Origin: Kineosporia succinea | GTDB taxonomy: Bacteria; Actinomycetota; Actinomycetes; Actinomycetales; Kineosporiaceae | Assembly: GCF_030811555.1 (NCBI RefSeq) | Contig: NZ_JAUSQZ010000001.1 | Location: forward strand, 1,798,001-1,862,000 | Direction: 5' to 3' | DNA: 64,000 nt | In this document: positions 33,529 to 52,645 of the stretch, piece by piece | How the letters are laid out: each line of letters starts with the position of its first letter | Numbering within the stretch: position 1 is the stretch's first letter | Position numbers and translations under genes: made by a program | Notes under the pieces: model-generated | The model's database searches: none | Told to the model about the DNA's origin: nothing | The model's input: only the letters and a program-made list of their open reading frames with translations

Positions 33529-34409
33529 TTCGAGCTCCTTCGCTGCATCCACGAGTAGAGCGCCATCGCCACGGCCACCACGACCACCATGCCGAGGGCG
33601 AGGGCCTTGGCCACGTTCTCCTGGCCGAGCACCGTCTCACTGGTCATCGCCGCGCGGATCTGCAGCGGGATGATGATGCCGCCCTGGCTGATCAGCGCCG
33701 CGGCGGTGGCGTAGGCGGCGAACGCGTTGGCGAACAGCAGCAGGAACGCCCCCAGGAACGGCGGGGTGAGCAGCGGGAAGGCGACGTGCCGCCAGTAGGC
33801 CCAGCCGCTTCCGCCGAGGCTCTCGGTGGCCTCGCGCCACTGCGGTTTCACGCCGTCGAGCGCGGGCAGGAAGACCAGGACCATCAGCGGCACCTGGAAG
33901 TACAGGTAGACGACCATCAGGCCGGACAGCTCGTAGAGCCACCCGCCGGAGGCGTTCACCCCGACGTCGCGCAGCAGCAGGGTGACGACACCCTGGTTGC
34001 CGACGCTCACCATGAAGGCCATCGCGAGGGTCACGCCGCCGAACTGGGCGAGCACACCGGCGGCAGCGGTCACCGTGCGGCGCACGATGCCGTCGGCCGG
34101 GCCCTGCACCACGATGTAGGCCAGCACGGCGCCGAGCACCGCGCCGATCGCGGCGGTGGCGAACGAGAGCTGGATGCTGCGCCAGAACGCGGTGAGCACG
34201 TAGCTCTCGCCCAGCGCGCGGACGTTGGCGAGGGTCGGCTGCCCCTCCGGGGTGCCGAACGCCTGAATCACCACCAGGGCGGTGGGCAGGAGCAGGAAGA
34301 GACCGACGTAGGCCAGGAAGGGCACCACGCCGATCCAGCTGAGCGGCACCCGCCGGCCGGCCCGGGGGGACCGGCCGGCGGGGTCAGCGTCGACGGACAC
34401 GGAGGTCAC
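33516..34409 (-). CDS. ABC transporter permease, 297 aa
   Basis: This is the first permease of the operon, with six membrane segments starting near residue 24. Its coupling loop reads EATESLGGSGWAYWRHVAFP (about 194-213). GTG34409 lies four bases after the stop of the binding-protein gene. The PotB-like arrangement supports an importer of the iron/polyamine/thiamine class rather than a sugar transporter. Confidence 0.92.
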   Translation of the reverse strand: MTSVSVDADPAGRSPRAGRRVPLSWIGVVPFLAYVGLFLLLPTALVVIQAFGTPEGQPTLANVRALGESYVLTAFWRSIQLSFATAAIGAVLGAVLAYIVVQGPADGIVRRTVTAAAGVLAQFGGVTLAMAFMVSVGNQGVVTLLLRDVGVNASGGWLYELSGLMVVYLYFQVPLMVLVFLPALDGVKPQWREATESLGGSGWAYWRHVAFPLLTPPFLGAFLLLFANAFAAYATAAALISQGGIIIPLQIRAAMTSETVLGQENVAKALALGMVVVVAVAMALYSWMQRRSSKWLQ

Positions 34410-49885: not shown

Positions 49886-50105
49886 CCGCCGCGTGCTTGG
49901 TGCTCATCAGGAGGGCGAAGATCTCGTCCCGCCAGAAACGAGCACCGTTCGGGTAGCCACGCATCTGCTCCCAGTACTCGTCGACCGCCTCGCGGGCGGC
50001 GGCGGACAGGCGGGTACCGGCCGGCTCGTCGAGCTGGTCACCGAAAGCGGCAACCCCCTCGGCGATTCCGAGGAGGCGTTCGAGCAGGATGGCGGAGGGG
50101 TTCAT
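49878..50105 (-). CDS. Small hypothetical protein, 75 aa
   Basis: I do not recognise this protein. It begins MNPSAILLERLLGIAEGVAAFG and is mostly helical and amphipathic, with no membrane segment. EAVDEYWEQMRGYPNGARFW in the middle has aromatic and charged residues typical of a folded small protein. It follows the MarR gene by 57 bases on the same strand, so the two may be co-transcribed. Its 3' end overlaps the oxygenase gene on the opposite strand. Codon third positions are GC-rich, supporting coding. Confidence 0.6.
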   Translation of the reverse strand: MNPSAILLERLLGIAEGVAAFGDQLDEPAGTRLSAAAREAVDEYWEQMRGYPNGARFWRDEIFALLMSTKHAAVS

Positions 50106-50162
50106 GACAGGCGCATCGGCAAACGGGTGAACCCGCTTGACCCTCCGTGACCGAGTTTTGTT

Positions 50163-50648
50163 CTAGCTCTCGTTCGCGTGGAGCTTGCCCTGCACGCGCA
50201 GGCCGATCTCGGTGAGCTGGCCGAGCTGCTCGGGGGTGAGCTGGTTGATCAGCATCTCGCGCACGGCCCGCACGTGACCCGGCGCGCTGGCGGCCAGCTT
50301 GGCCCGCCCGGCGTCGGTGAGCTCGGCGTTCATGCCCCGGCGGTCTTCCTCGCACTCCACCCGGCGCACCCAGCCGGCCTGCTCGGCCCGGGTGACCGCC
50401 CGCGTGACCCCACTGCGCGTGGAGAGGGTGAGATCGGCCAGCTCGCGCATGCGCAGCTTGCCGTCGGGCGCCTCGGACAGACGAACCAGGAGGTCGTAGT
50501 CGGTGAGCGTCAGGTCGGAGTCGGCCGCGAGCTGCCGGTCGAGAGCCGCGAAGAGCATGCGGGTGCTGTCCAGGTACGCCCGCCAGGCGCCCTGCTCGGC
50601 TTCGCTGAGCCAGGTGTCGTCGGCGGCGGGGGCGTCGTTCTCATGCAC
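50163..50648 (-). CDS. MarR-family transcriptional regulator, 161 aa
   Basis: The winged helix is clear: TLTDYDLLVRLSEAPDGKLRM, ELADLTLSTRSGVTRAVTRAE (recognition helix) and WVRRVECEEDRRGMNAELT (wing), at about residues 45-105, with dimerisation helices at both ends. These regulators respond to phenolic compounds or oxidants. GTG50648 is preferred to a longer frame: TAAGCT ends seven bases before it with TTGCGC 16 bases further upstream, so the mRNA should be leaderless. Its promoter is back to back with that of the 6C-like RNA. Confidence 0.9.
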   Translation of the reverse strand: MHENDAPAADDTWLSEAEQGAWRAYLDSTRMLFAALDRQLAADSDLTLTDYDLLVRLSEAPDGKLRMRELADLTLSTRSGVTRAVTRAEQAGWVRRVECEEDRRGMNAELTDAGRAKLAASAPGHVRAVREMLINQLTPEQLGQLTEIGLRVQGKLHANES

Positions 50649-50655
50649 CCGGTCC

Positions 50656-50683
50656 AGCTTACCGCTAATGGTTGACGGCGCAA
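50656..50683 (-). promoter_or_regulatory. Promoter of the MarR gene
   Basis: On the minus strand TTGCGC (50683-50678), 16 bases and TAAGCT (50661-50656), seven bases before the GTG start. The opposite strand carries TTGACG (50672-50677), the probable -35 of the 6C-like RNA, so the two promoters overlap. Confidence 0.55.
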
Positions 50684-50707
50684 CGACCTCGATGGCACCA
50701 TGGATGC

Positions 50708-50835
50708 CGTCGGTCTCATGACTACGCGCGCACCCGTCTTCCCCCCGAGACGCTGCGCTGCGGCTGGGCCGGCTTCTGCAAGTAACGCTTACCGTCCCGC
50801 CTAACCCCTCCGAGGCGGGACGGTAAGCGCGTTTT
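50708..50835 (+). ncRNA. 6C-like small RNA
   Basis: Two hairpins with C-rich loops match the actinobacterial 6C RNA description. The first is CGTCT/AGACG (50735-50752) with loop TCCCCCCG, exactly six Cs. The second is a 17-bp perfect stem (50786-50802 with 50813-50829) with loop AACCCCTCCG, followed by CGTTTTGG as a terminator. TTGACG (50672-50677), 18 bases and CACCAT (50696-50701) could be its promoter; the 5' end near 50708 is estimated. In mycobacteria 6C RNA pairs with target mRNAs through the C-rich loops and affects growth; the role here is inferred. Confidence 0.75.
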
Positions 50836-50897
50836 GGCACTCAGTGACGCAAACCCTGCCTTTCGATCAGGGACGCGCCGGTCACCAAACGACGAAT

Positions 50898-50937
50898 CCC
50901 CGGCTCCTGCGGAACGAGAGTTCCGGAGGAGCCGGGG
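50898..50937 (-). terminator. Terminator of the csbD-like gene
   Basis: An 11-bp stem, CCCCGGCTCCT (50898-50908) with 50927-50937, and inner GGAAC-GAGA-GTTCC, located 33 bases past the stop. Confidence 0.85.
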
Positions 50938-50969
50938 AGGACTCGACGTGGAGCGCGGGACAGAACCCG

Positions 50970-51143
50970 TCAGTGCTTGAACGCGTCCTTCACGTGCTCG
51001 CCCGCCTGCTTGACGTCGGCCGACGTCTGGTCGGCGCGGCCCTCGTTCTCCAGGCGCTGGTCGTCGGTGCCCTTACCGACGGCTTCCTTGGCCTTGCCGG
51101 CCACGCTCTGCGCGGTGTTCTTGATCTTGTCAGTGGCACTCAT
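50970..51143 (-). CDS. CsbD-family stress protein, 57 aa
   Basis: A small, hydrophilic, helical protein beginning MSATDKIKNTAQSVAGKAKE and continuing with AVGKGTDDQRLENEGRADQT, the CsbD signature. CsbD proteins are strongly induced by general stress in many bacteria, but their function is not known. GAAGGAG six bases upstream fixes ATG51143. It is a single-gene unit with its own terminator, next to the 6C-like RNA and divergent from the DUF4097-like gene. Confidence 0.9.
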   Translation of the reverse strand: MSATDKIKNTAQSVAGKAKEAVGKGTDDQRLENEGRADQTSADVKQAGEHVKDAFKH

Positions 51144-51230
51144 GACGATCTCCTTCAGCTCGCTTGCCTTCACTCTCGCCCCTGAACGCGATCTCCGCAT
51201 CTCAGGGTGTCCCCCCAAAGTGGAAAGTCA

Positions 51231-51266
51231 GGGTTCACAATTGTCGAAGCTTGGGTTTCACTATTG
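51231..51266 (+). promoter_or_regulatory. Direct repeats before the DUF4097-like gene
   Basis: GGGTTCACAATTG (51231-51243) and GGGTTTCACTATTG (51253-51266) form a near-exact direct repeat about two helical turns apart. TTCACA (51234-51239), 17 bases and TTCACT (51257-51262) within them could be the promoter of a leaderless mRNA starting at ATG51270. Confidence 0.4.
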
Positions 51267-51269
51267 AGC

Positions 51270-52214
51270 ATGAGTGACGAACTGGAAGCGATTCTCAGGA
51301 GCGTCGCCTCGGGGGAGATCAGCCCGGAGGCGGCCATGAAGGCGATCGACGAGCAGAAGGTGAAGCCGGCCACACCACCGGCGCCCGTCCCGGCACCGGA
51401 GCCCGCGGCCCCGGCGTCCCCCAGCACCTCGTCCACGACCGCGGCGACCGGGAGGCCCGCGTCCGGGGGCCCGGTGTTCGGCACCCCGCCGTCGAGGCAC
51501 GCGGGTGGCACCCCGCCGATCAGCGGAACCATCGGCACCGTGCGGGTACTCGGCTCGTACCGGGCCGTGCAGGTCGTGGCCGACCCGTCGGTGGCCCAGC
51601 TCTACGTGACCGGCCCGCACCGGATCAGCCAGGAGGGCACCACCCTCGTCGTGTCCGGCACCGGGCCGCTCGACGAGCCCGGCCCGGCGAACCGTTCCGG
51701 CAACCTGCCCGGCGGTTTCAGCTTCAGCGACCTGCCCAAGACCCTCACCTGGGCGCGGTCGTGGAAGGAGCACCAGCTTCTGGTGCGGGTGAACCCCGAG
51801 CTGCTGGTCGAGCTCGAGGCGACGGGGGCCGAGGTCAAGCTCAACGGCCTGGTCGGCGGGCTCAGGGTGCGCGTGGTGGCGAGCTCGCTCAAGGCCGAGA
51901 ACCTGCGCGGGCAGCTGGATCTCGAGGCGATGTCGTCGTCGGTCAAGCTGAGCACGGTGCCGCTGGGTGAGTCCCGGATCTACGTGGAGAGCTCGTCCGC
52001 CCGCATCACCCTGCGCGAGGGCAGCGATCTGCGGATCTCCGGCACGAACCGGATGGGCCGGCTGCAGCTGCCCGACCGCCCGGTGAGCACGCTGCCGCTG
52101 GAGGACCAGACCACCGAGGCGGTGGTGGGTTCCGGGCGCGACCTGCTGAAGGTCGAAGCGGTGATGAGCTCGGTGACGGTGGGCGCCCAGGTCTGGGACG
52201 AGGTGCCTTCGTGA
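51270..52214 (+). CDS. DUF4097-like beta-repeat protein, 314 aa
   Basis: The N-terminus (about 3-25) is a short helical module, EAILRSVASGEISPEAAMKAI, similar to SHOCT-like motifs. A Pro/Ala linker (about 30-90) follows. The rest is a run of beta strands (VRVLGSYRAVQVVADPSVAQL, LVELEATGAEVKLNGLVGGL) like the adhesin-type repeats of DUF4097 proteins. There is no signal peptide or membrane helix. The gene overlaps the next, a DUF2089 protein, by GTGA, so they likely act together. No SD precedes the ATG. Confidence 0.75.
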   Translation: MSDELEAILRSVASGEISPEAAMKAIDEQKVKPATPPAPVPAPEPAAPASPSTSSTTAATGRPASGGPVFGTPPSRHAGGTPPISGTIGTVRVLGSYRAVQVVADPSVAQLYVTGPHRISQEGTTLVVSGTGPLDEPGPANRSGNLPGGFSFSDLPKTLTWARSWKEHQLLVRVNPELLVELEATGAEVKLNGLVGGLRVRVVASSLKAENLRGQLDLEAMSSSVKLSTVPLGESRIYVESSSARITLREGSDLRISGTNRMGRLQLPDRPVSTLPLEDQTTEAVVGSGRDLLKVEAVMSSVTVGAQVWDEVPS

Positions 52215-52645
52215 GCTCCACCTCCGGCGAGCGCGGCTACCGGGCACCCCAGCAGTGCCCGGTCTGCGGCGACGAACTGCACCTCACCCAGCTCGGCTGT
52301 GACTCCTGCGGCACCGGTATCAGCGGGCATTTCCACCACTGCGACTTCTGTGCACTGGAGGAGTCGGAACTCGATGTGCTGCGGGTGTTCCTGGCCTCGC
52401 GCGGCAACATGAAGGAACTCGAACGGCACCTCGGGGTCAGTTACCCGACGGCCCGGGCCCGGTTCGACGACCTGCTGTCCAAGCTCGGCCTGCGCCCCTC
52501 GGCCACCTCGGCCCCGGCACCGGCCACCACGGCGGATGCGACGGAACGTAGTGCCCCGGACGAGGCCACCCGGCTGGCCACCCTGCGCGCGCTGGCCACC
52601 GGCGAGCTCGACGTCGATGCCGCCCGCAACCTCCTCGGAGACTGA
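52211..52645 (+). CDS. DUF2089 zinc-ribbon protein, 144 aa
   Basis: Four cysteines in two CxxC pairs (CPVCGDEL, CDSCGTGI) form a zinc ribbon, followed by CDFCALEESELDVLRVFLASRG and an HTH-like part, ELERHLGVSYPTARARFD, all typical of DUF2089. It may be a DNA-binding regulator. The C-terminus (LATLRALATGELDVDAARNLL) repeats the motif at the N-terminus of the preceding protein. Its GTG start overlaps the stop of that gene. Confidence 0.88.
   Translation: MSSTSGERGYRAPQQCPVCGDELHLTQLGCDSCGTGISGHFHHCDFCALEESELDVLRVFLASRGNMKELERHLGVSYPTARARFDDLLSKLGLRPSATSAPAPATTADATERSAPDEATRLATLRALATGELDVDAARNLLGD

Follow-up and report, generated by a model that had tools for sequence, protein, structure and literature searches.

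Among actinobacterial small RNAs with C-rich loops the 6C/B11 family is the main one known, and the inputs that act on this family are poorly understood. The 6C RNA is described, in the available part of PMC8388888, as two stem-loops with six or more cytosines each, and for B11 of M. abscessus an excerpt of PMC10470900 reports that either loop suffices for eccB4 to be repressed through its ribosome-binding site. In M. marinum, according to the corresponding excerpt of PMC12395582, the C-rich loop of the B11 terminator acts on G tracts near ribosome-binding sites. On the side of the regulators, the accessible text of PMC3737563 places two operators between the gene of SCO3205 (Streptomyces coelicolor) and a divergent dioxygenase-like gene. 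Here we analysed a stretch of 64,000 nucleotides from Kineosporia succinea (hereafter the window), in which comparison of sequences points to a small RNA of the C-rich-loop kind that resembles 6C RNA yet is separate from it, and that adjoins the gene of a MarR repressor and is probably under its control. Literature searches yielded no description of such a MarR-linked small RNA arrangement.

Structure and conservation of the element

The preliminary description of this locus had placed a plus-strand element with two hairpins between a marR gene and a csbD-like gene, and these positions, as well as the identity of both flanking genes, hold (Table 1). It had also given both hairpins loops of six cytosines, which is exactly the case for hairpin 1, whereas the six cytosines of the hairpin 2 loop (AACCCCUCCG) are split 4+2 and form no single run. 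The first hairpin is present but larger than had been described, being made of three stacked stems, and its apical loop is closed by 50735-50740 paired with 50747-50752. Because hairpin 1 is a 65-nt arm, the apparent linker is mostly its 3' side. The 5' end of the predicted RNA was placed from the point where the fold begins and from hexamers that resemble a promoter, its 3' end from the terminator-like hairpin. This 3' end, a 17-bp stem followed by TTTT, was not called by the consensus terminator scan, whose limits are a loop of at most 8 and at least 5 T, and the consensus scan of 50100-51300 returned 0 promoters and 0 terminators within those limits.

Table 1. Features of the locus, in positions of the window
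Feature	Position	Strand	Remarks
marR gene, GTG start assumed	50163..50648	-	Pfam MarR_2, E 9.6e-15
Proposed MarR operator site 1, TTGACGGCGCAA	50672..50683		overlaps the -35-like TTGACG of the small RNA
Weak -10-like CACCAT	50696..50701	+	18 nt after TTGACG (50672-50677)
Position of operator site 2, CCGTCGGTCTCA (decayed) in the window	50707..50718		overlaps the 5' arm of hairpin 1
Predicted small RNA (~130 nt)	50708..50836	+	genus conservation, covariation, fold z-score
Hairpin 1, 65-nt arm	50709..50773	+	three stems: an outer one, a GC-rich middle one and an inner one that carries the C6 loop
CCCCCC loop at the tip of hairpin 1, candidate seed for pairing	50741..50746	+	unpaired probability 0.93-1.0
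Hairpin 2, terminator-like	50786..50829	+	perfect 17-bp stem, 50786-50802 / 50813-50829
Loop of hairpin 2, AACCCCTCCG	50803..50812	+	contains CCTCC; unpaired probability of the C's 0.93-1.0
T tract (TTTT), 4 T, after hairpin 2	50832..50835	+	
Separate inverted repeat downstream of csbD	50897..50938	-	
csbD-like gene, convergent with the small RNA	50970..51143	-	PF05532, E 3.9e-17

A scan for two hairpins with at least 6 C in the loop, lying within 60 nt of each other and followed by a T-rich tail, found one such arrangement in the window. Among first-order Markov copies of the window, used as random controls, look-alikes with a second stem of at least 8 bp appeared in 12 of 80 random strands and, in a second run, in 19 of 200, this second run giving 3 of 200 strands when the second stem was required to have at least 10 bp and 0 of 200 at 12 bp or more. 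Single C-loop hairpins were not in excess (158 and 127 per strand, against a mean of 174 in the random copies). Under the loose rule of a second stem of 8 bp or more the layout by itself is only mildly unusual, the real second stem having 17 bp, and we regard the conservation of the sequence among relatives as decisive on whether it exceeds chance. The scan for C-loop hairpins also returned a 13-bp hairpin with the loop CCCCCCGG on the minus strand at about 34349-34382.

When 38 genomes were searched at the DNA level, matches were strong (E 1.3e-34 or better) in the genome of the window, which is a single contig of 8.07 Mb, and in all five other Kineosporia, while in the remaining 32 the best match had an E of 0.002 and those among the matches listed were fragments of fewer than 50 bases. 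At the level of the family the RNA is present in six of 13 genomes, all six belonging to the genus Kineosporia, and absent from the other seven. The element lies between marR and csbD in all six, with marR beside it in 6/6 and, in each of the five relatives, a csbD-like gene of 57 residues on its far side. Mean pairwise identity, with gaps counted as mismatches, was 0.90 at 50672-50701, 0.67 at 50702-50720, 0.83 in hairpin 1, 0.91 in hairpin 2, 0.76 at 50830-50842 and 0.29 at 50843-50940; when gaps were ignored it was 0.91 at 50672-50701, 0.84 in hairpin 1, 0.92 in hairpin 2 and 0.46 at 50843-50940, this last value resting on letters in 43% of the columns only. The fold energy z-score was -5.0 in the window and between -6.4 and -8.7 in the five relatives.

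In the six-sequence alignment, 97.4% of the 233 cells belonging to the 39 named pairs are paired, and seven of the 39 pairs have changed on both sides (two in the outer and two in the inner stem of hairpin 1, and three in hairpin 2), a count that, coming from six related rows, represents few independent events. Neither the paired fraction nor the number of two-sided changes was reached in any of 500 shuffles, and structures slid along the alignment had 29-48% of cells paired and 0-1 pairs with two-sided changes; another of the five covariation measures, the number of further pair types (15 against 13.0), was reached by 31 of the 500 shuffles. The middle stem of hairpin 1 hardly varies and is uninformative in this respect. 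The six unpaired cells fall in columns 7/62 (two species), 10/59 (the window), and 28/47, 33/42 and 34/41 (one each). The preliminary description had named the lack of compensatory changes in the first stem among relatives as evidence against its proposal; hairpin 1 does show such changes, in the four pairs altered on both sides. The C-rich cores of both loops persist across the species while the stems covary: CCCCTCCG of the hairpin 2 loop is kept in all six sequences, this loop in the relatives carries a run of 5 C (three species) or 6 C (two species) plus CC, and one relative (G004) has five C only in the loop of hairpin 1.

This conservation and covariation lend good support to a small-RNA gene that is structured, has C-rich loops and stands back to back with marR. 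That the locus exists as an RNA gene we hold to be very probable, and the comparison of genomes indicates a real small-RNA gene at the level of the genus, found so far only in Kineosporia.

Relation to 6C and other RNA families

The membership in the 6C family that had been put forward for the element was not borne out. The covariance-model check suggested with it gave 21.4 bits (E 0.91) for RF01066 against a cut-off of 47, with the first hairpin placed on other bases. Of the pair of observations that had been named as counting against the proposal, no model hit and no RNA, the missing model hit is thus seen. Nothing in the window reaches the Rfam gathering cut-off for RF01066 (47 bits), and the loci of the five relatives (L008-L012) gave no match to it at E<=5. 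Membership was rejected on the grounds of this score below the cut-off, the misplaced hairpin 1 and the unmatched relatives. As for the number of cytosines, the window has the six that the available wording of PMC8388888 names, in loop 1 as in loop 2 (4+2). A canonical 6C RNA was found above the cut-off elsewhere in each of the six Kineosporia genomes, one in each, at 50.4-52.3 bits; that of the window's own genome (G000:C1:2024753-2024826, 50.4 bits) has C7 loops and hairpins 3 nt apart. The hairpins of the canonical 6C are letter-identical in the five other Kineosporia, and this RNA is far more conserved than the MarR-linked one.

We also built a model of the new RNA (R1) and searched it in 246 genomes of the class, with stricter filters and the genomes drawn evenly, where it matched its own locus and two others (L059 and L060); the five other Kineosporia were evidently outside the 246 drawn, because they would have matched. 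The first of these two matches (L059, G160:C62:19070-19155, minus) is a 6C-like RNA whose second loop has a C9 run and whose first has C5. It scores 39.4 bits on RF01066, below the cut-off, and to judge from it the Rfam model may be missing some 6C RNAs. The second (L060) matches weakly, with several of the pairs broken and the T tract lacking, and was taken as chance. In the search of the family, R1 gave five further matches of 28-39 bits to the complementary strand of the loci already found, where the hairpins recur in mirror image; a match of 20.8 bits (E 0.5) in G001 was taken as chance.

Is the MarR-linked RNA a diverged but true member of 6C, that is, a duplicate sharing ancestry with the canonical 6C of its own genome? 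The overall plan is the same in both, with neighbouring hairpins, C-rich apical loops and a terminator-like second hairpin, and R1 gives weak scores to some 6C loci (32.9 bits for L059, 17.7 for L061 and 14.4 for L064). Yet on the genome's own 6C (L001) the score of R1 is 13.3 bits and concerns a fragment only, RF01066 gives the element 21.4 bits instead of 47 with hairpin 1 misplaced and finds nothing at E<=5 in the five relatives, and the locus, the neighbours and the stem sequences all differ. We consider this common origin unlikely. The RNA may be an old diverged duplicate of 6C or an independent invention.

Other families fared no better. Relaxed-threshold Rfam matches (microRNA families such as mir-299, RsmW, CC1840 and sR55) were all below their cut-offs and were taken as chance, arising from the long perfect hairpin. 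The Scr3202 RNA of Streptomyces (RF02833), which is likewise an actinobacterial small RNA of similar size, was rejected, with 0 of the six Kineosporia genomes matching at E<=1.

Control region and related marR loci

A promoter region common to marR and the small RNA had been proposed in the preliminary description, and this proposal gains support from TTG-N6-CAA boxes found in Kineosporia and at related marR loci, while the competition between the two genes that had accompanied it would be more aptly described as control of both by MarR. Two boxes, TTGACGnCGCAA and TTGnCGGnGCAA, lie 34-35 bp apart in five of the six Kineosporia species, a layout like that of SCO3205. The putative operator site 2 is intact (TTGnCGGnGCAA) in these five and decayed in the species of the window, which keeps site 1 only. 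GGCA[CG]CAT around the -10-like element is kept in all six. The double-box pattern had no match elsewhere in the six Kineosporia genomes, and the reversed-pattern control had two, both in G001. A looser single-site pattern, TTGACNNNGCAAYNAC, had one match in three of the Kineosporia genomes and two in the other three, with one match at the locus in every case. It had none in the 7 other genomes of the family, and the reversed-pattern controls gave 0 matches. The extra box of the window's own genome (TTGACAGGGCAATGAC, L155, G000:C1:2319859-2319874) is located between a TetR-like gene, judged by eye, and an OsmC-family gene (Pfam), and its position makes it a possible further member of the regulon that would tie this MarR to peroxide stress; the other two extra sites (G003 and G004) are in unrelated contexts.

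The MarR protein is related to a chain of PDB entry 3zpl (phmmer E 1.5e-33), an entry we take to be the SCO3205-DNA complex. This code appears in the accessible text of the SCO3205 paper (PMC3737563). All 18 aligned MarR proteins have the cysteine of the motif VRRVECE, a candidate that may or may not be a redox sensor. The comparison with other genera covered 17 marR relatives in named genomes, close relatives only (3 Kineosporia and 14 other), which we call relatives and not orthologs. Two TTG-N6-CAA boxes, 32-37 bp apart, are present in 11 of the 14 loci from outside Kineosporia and one box in the other three. The divergent gene was tested against Pfam in five of these 14 loci, where it encodes pirin (3) or a glyoxalase-family protein (2); in the other nine, the translated starts of the divergent genes look alike by eye in eight, L048 being different. 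In the seven other genomes of the family MarR finds at best 43-50% identity, which does not exceed that of the Kineosporia paralogs.

The locus could be no more than MarR operator and promoter DNA followed by a transcriptional barrier that shields csbD from antisense transcription, the RNA itself being functionless. Site 2 indeed shares bases with the 5' arm of hairpin 1, and hairpin 2 would halt plus-strand transcription before csbD. Against such a reading, which we hold to be highly improbable, conservation and two-sided changes reach the stems outside the operator and both C-rich loops, terminators need no conserved C-rich loop, and the stem of the RNA is kept in the window after the loss of site 2. 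Within the decayed site the window keeps the stem pair of columns 8/61 by a two-sided change from G-C to C-G, which suggests that selection acts on the RNA and not merely on the operator. Since csbD has a separate inverted repeat downstream of it (Table 1), hairpin 2 is not needed as the terminator of that gene. Beyond csbD, a protein of 314 aa without Pfam match (51270-52214, plus) overlaps by 4 nt a DUF2089 zinc-ribbon/HTH gene (52211-52645, plus), and sequence similar by eye to 51270-52645 is found beyond csbD in L008 as well.

Proposed mechanism and comparison with known systems

The interpretation that we favour, with somewhat more confidence than doubt, is that of a trans-acting RNA of ~130 nt under MarR control that silences mRNAs by means of its loops. 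Transcription of the RNA would lead away from marR and stop at hairpin 2. The adjacent MarR would bind the boxes and repress both its own gene and the small RNA until a ligand or an oxidant releases it: bound at site 1 it would cover the -35 of the small RNA and the upstream region of marR, and bound at site 2 it would cover the start of the RNA, so that its release would switch on both. By analogy with B11 and 6C, the CCCCCC and CCCCUCC loops would then pair with G-rich Shine-Dalgarno regions (GGGGGG and GGAGGGG), and pairing at the ribosome-binding sites would block translation of the target mRNAs. The CCTCC (CCUCC) of the hairpin 2 loop has the sequence of the anti-Shine-Dalgarno core. We incline, to a modest degree, towards this mechanism in its full form. 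Counted against it are the weak -10 (CACCAT), the short T tract, the consensus scan with its 0 promoters and 0 terminators, and the stretch 50702-50720, where site 2 lies and the RNA begins, which is only 0.67 identical and in which site 2 has decayed in the species of the window.

The target pattern CGGAGGGG-N3-9-ATG had 212 matches in the six Kineosporia genomes, 33 of them in the window's own genome, against 93 for the reversed pattern, an excess that would also be expected from ordinary Shine-Dalgarno sites. Among the matches listed, 18 stretches outside the own genome were chosen for recurring matched letters; nearly all were short or doubtful frames, and no convincing conserved target emerged from the 18. 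All six Kineosporia genomes carry a single pirin gene. A TTGAC-type box is present at none of these six pirin loci, and in two of the six a TTGCGTGTGCAA match is located about 1 kb beyond the point where the pirin domain begins. As for pirin being a target in trans, short G runs precede some of the candidate starts in some species, with nothing consistent across the six.

The fact that the pattern search brought out no specific target, together with the presence of CCUCC, identical to the anti-Shine-Dalgarno core, in loop 2 of all six sequences, would fit C-rich loops that mainly bind a protein or an RNA that acts as a general competitor at ribosome-binding sites without specific targets. The B11 precedents, as far as the excerpts describe them, are of specific targets with G tracts, and we give this reading little credence. 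Least probable of all is that the locus encodes a leader peptide or is transcribed as a short mRNA: the frame that in the window begins with the ATG at 50700 and stays open as far as the hairpin 2 loop has a start codon that is not conserved, and insertions and deletions shift the frames in such a way that none is common to the six sequences.

Returning to the RNA as a MarR-controlled silencer, we put forward, tentatively and with rather more doubt than confidence, that a MarR-controlled divergent promoter, which serves protective enzymes (pirin and glyoxalase-family) in other genera, was taken over in Kineosporia by a riboregulator with C-rich loops. Part of one operator would serve at the same time as the 5' arm of the RNA, one loop would mimic the anti-Shine-Dalgarno sequence of the ribosome, and the ligand-sensing repressor would switch a translational silencer in place of an enzyme, so that these bacteria would have a second, inducible 6C-like RNA next to the canonical one. 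Were this true, a second C-rich-loop RNA beside a dedicated ligand-type repressor would represent a switchable version of the 6C/B11 output, and the locus would show clearly how an RNA gene can occupy a place where relatives carry a protein gene under similar operators. The MarR and small RNA system is small enough for direct testing.

With 6C and B11 the MarR-linked RNA shares two hairpins, C-rich loops, a terminator-like 3' hairpin and, by analogy, a likely pairing with G-rich ribosome-binding sites. It differs from 6C in its much longer three-part hairpin 1, in its second loop (CCCC-U-CC), in its linker of 12 nt against 3 nt in the 6C of its own genome, and in its location at marR with MarR-type boxes, and it coexists with a canonical 6C in 6/6 genomes. 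The marR-pirin and marR-glyoxalase loci of Actinopolymorpha, Rugosimonospora, Rhodococcus and Williamsia have a related MarR (54-67% identical) and TTG-N6-CAA boxes too, mostly two and 32-37 bp apart, but their divergent slot is occupied mostly by pirin or glyoxalase-family genes, whereas in Kineosporia it is occupied by an RNA. The SCO3205 system is alike in its related MarR and in having two operators, predicted ones in Kineosporia, between the regulator and a divergent unit. The consensus is TTnAAnnnTCAA in S. coelicolor, as given in the available part of its description, and TTGACnnnGCAA in Kineosporia, and the divergent unit is a gene for a dioxygenase-like protein in the former and a small RNA in the latter.
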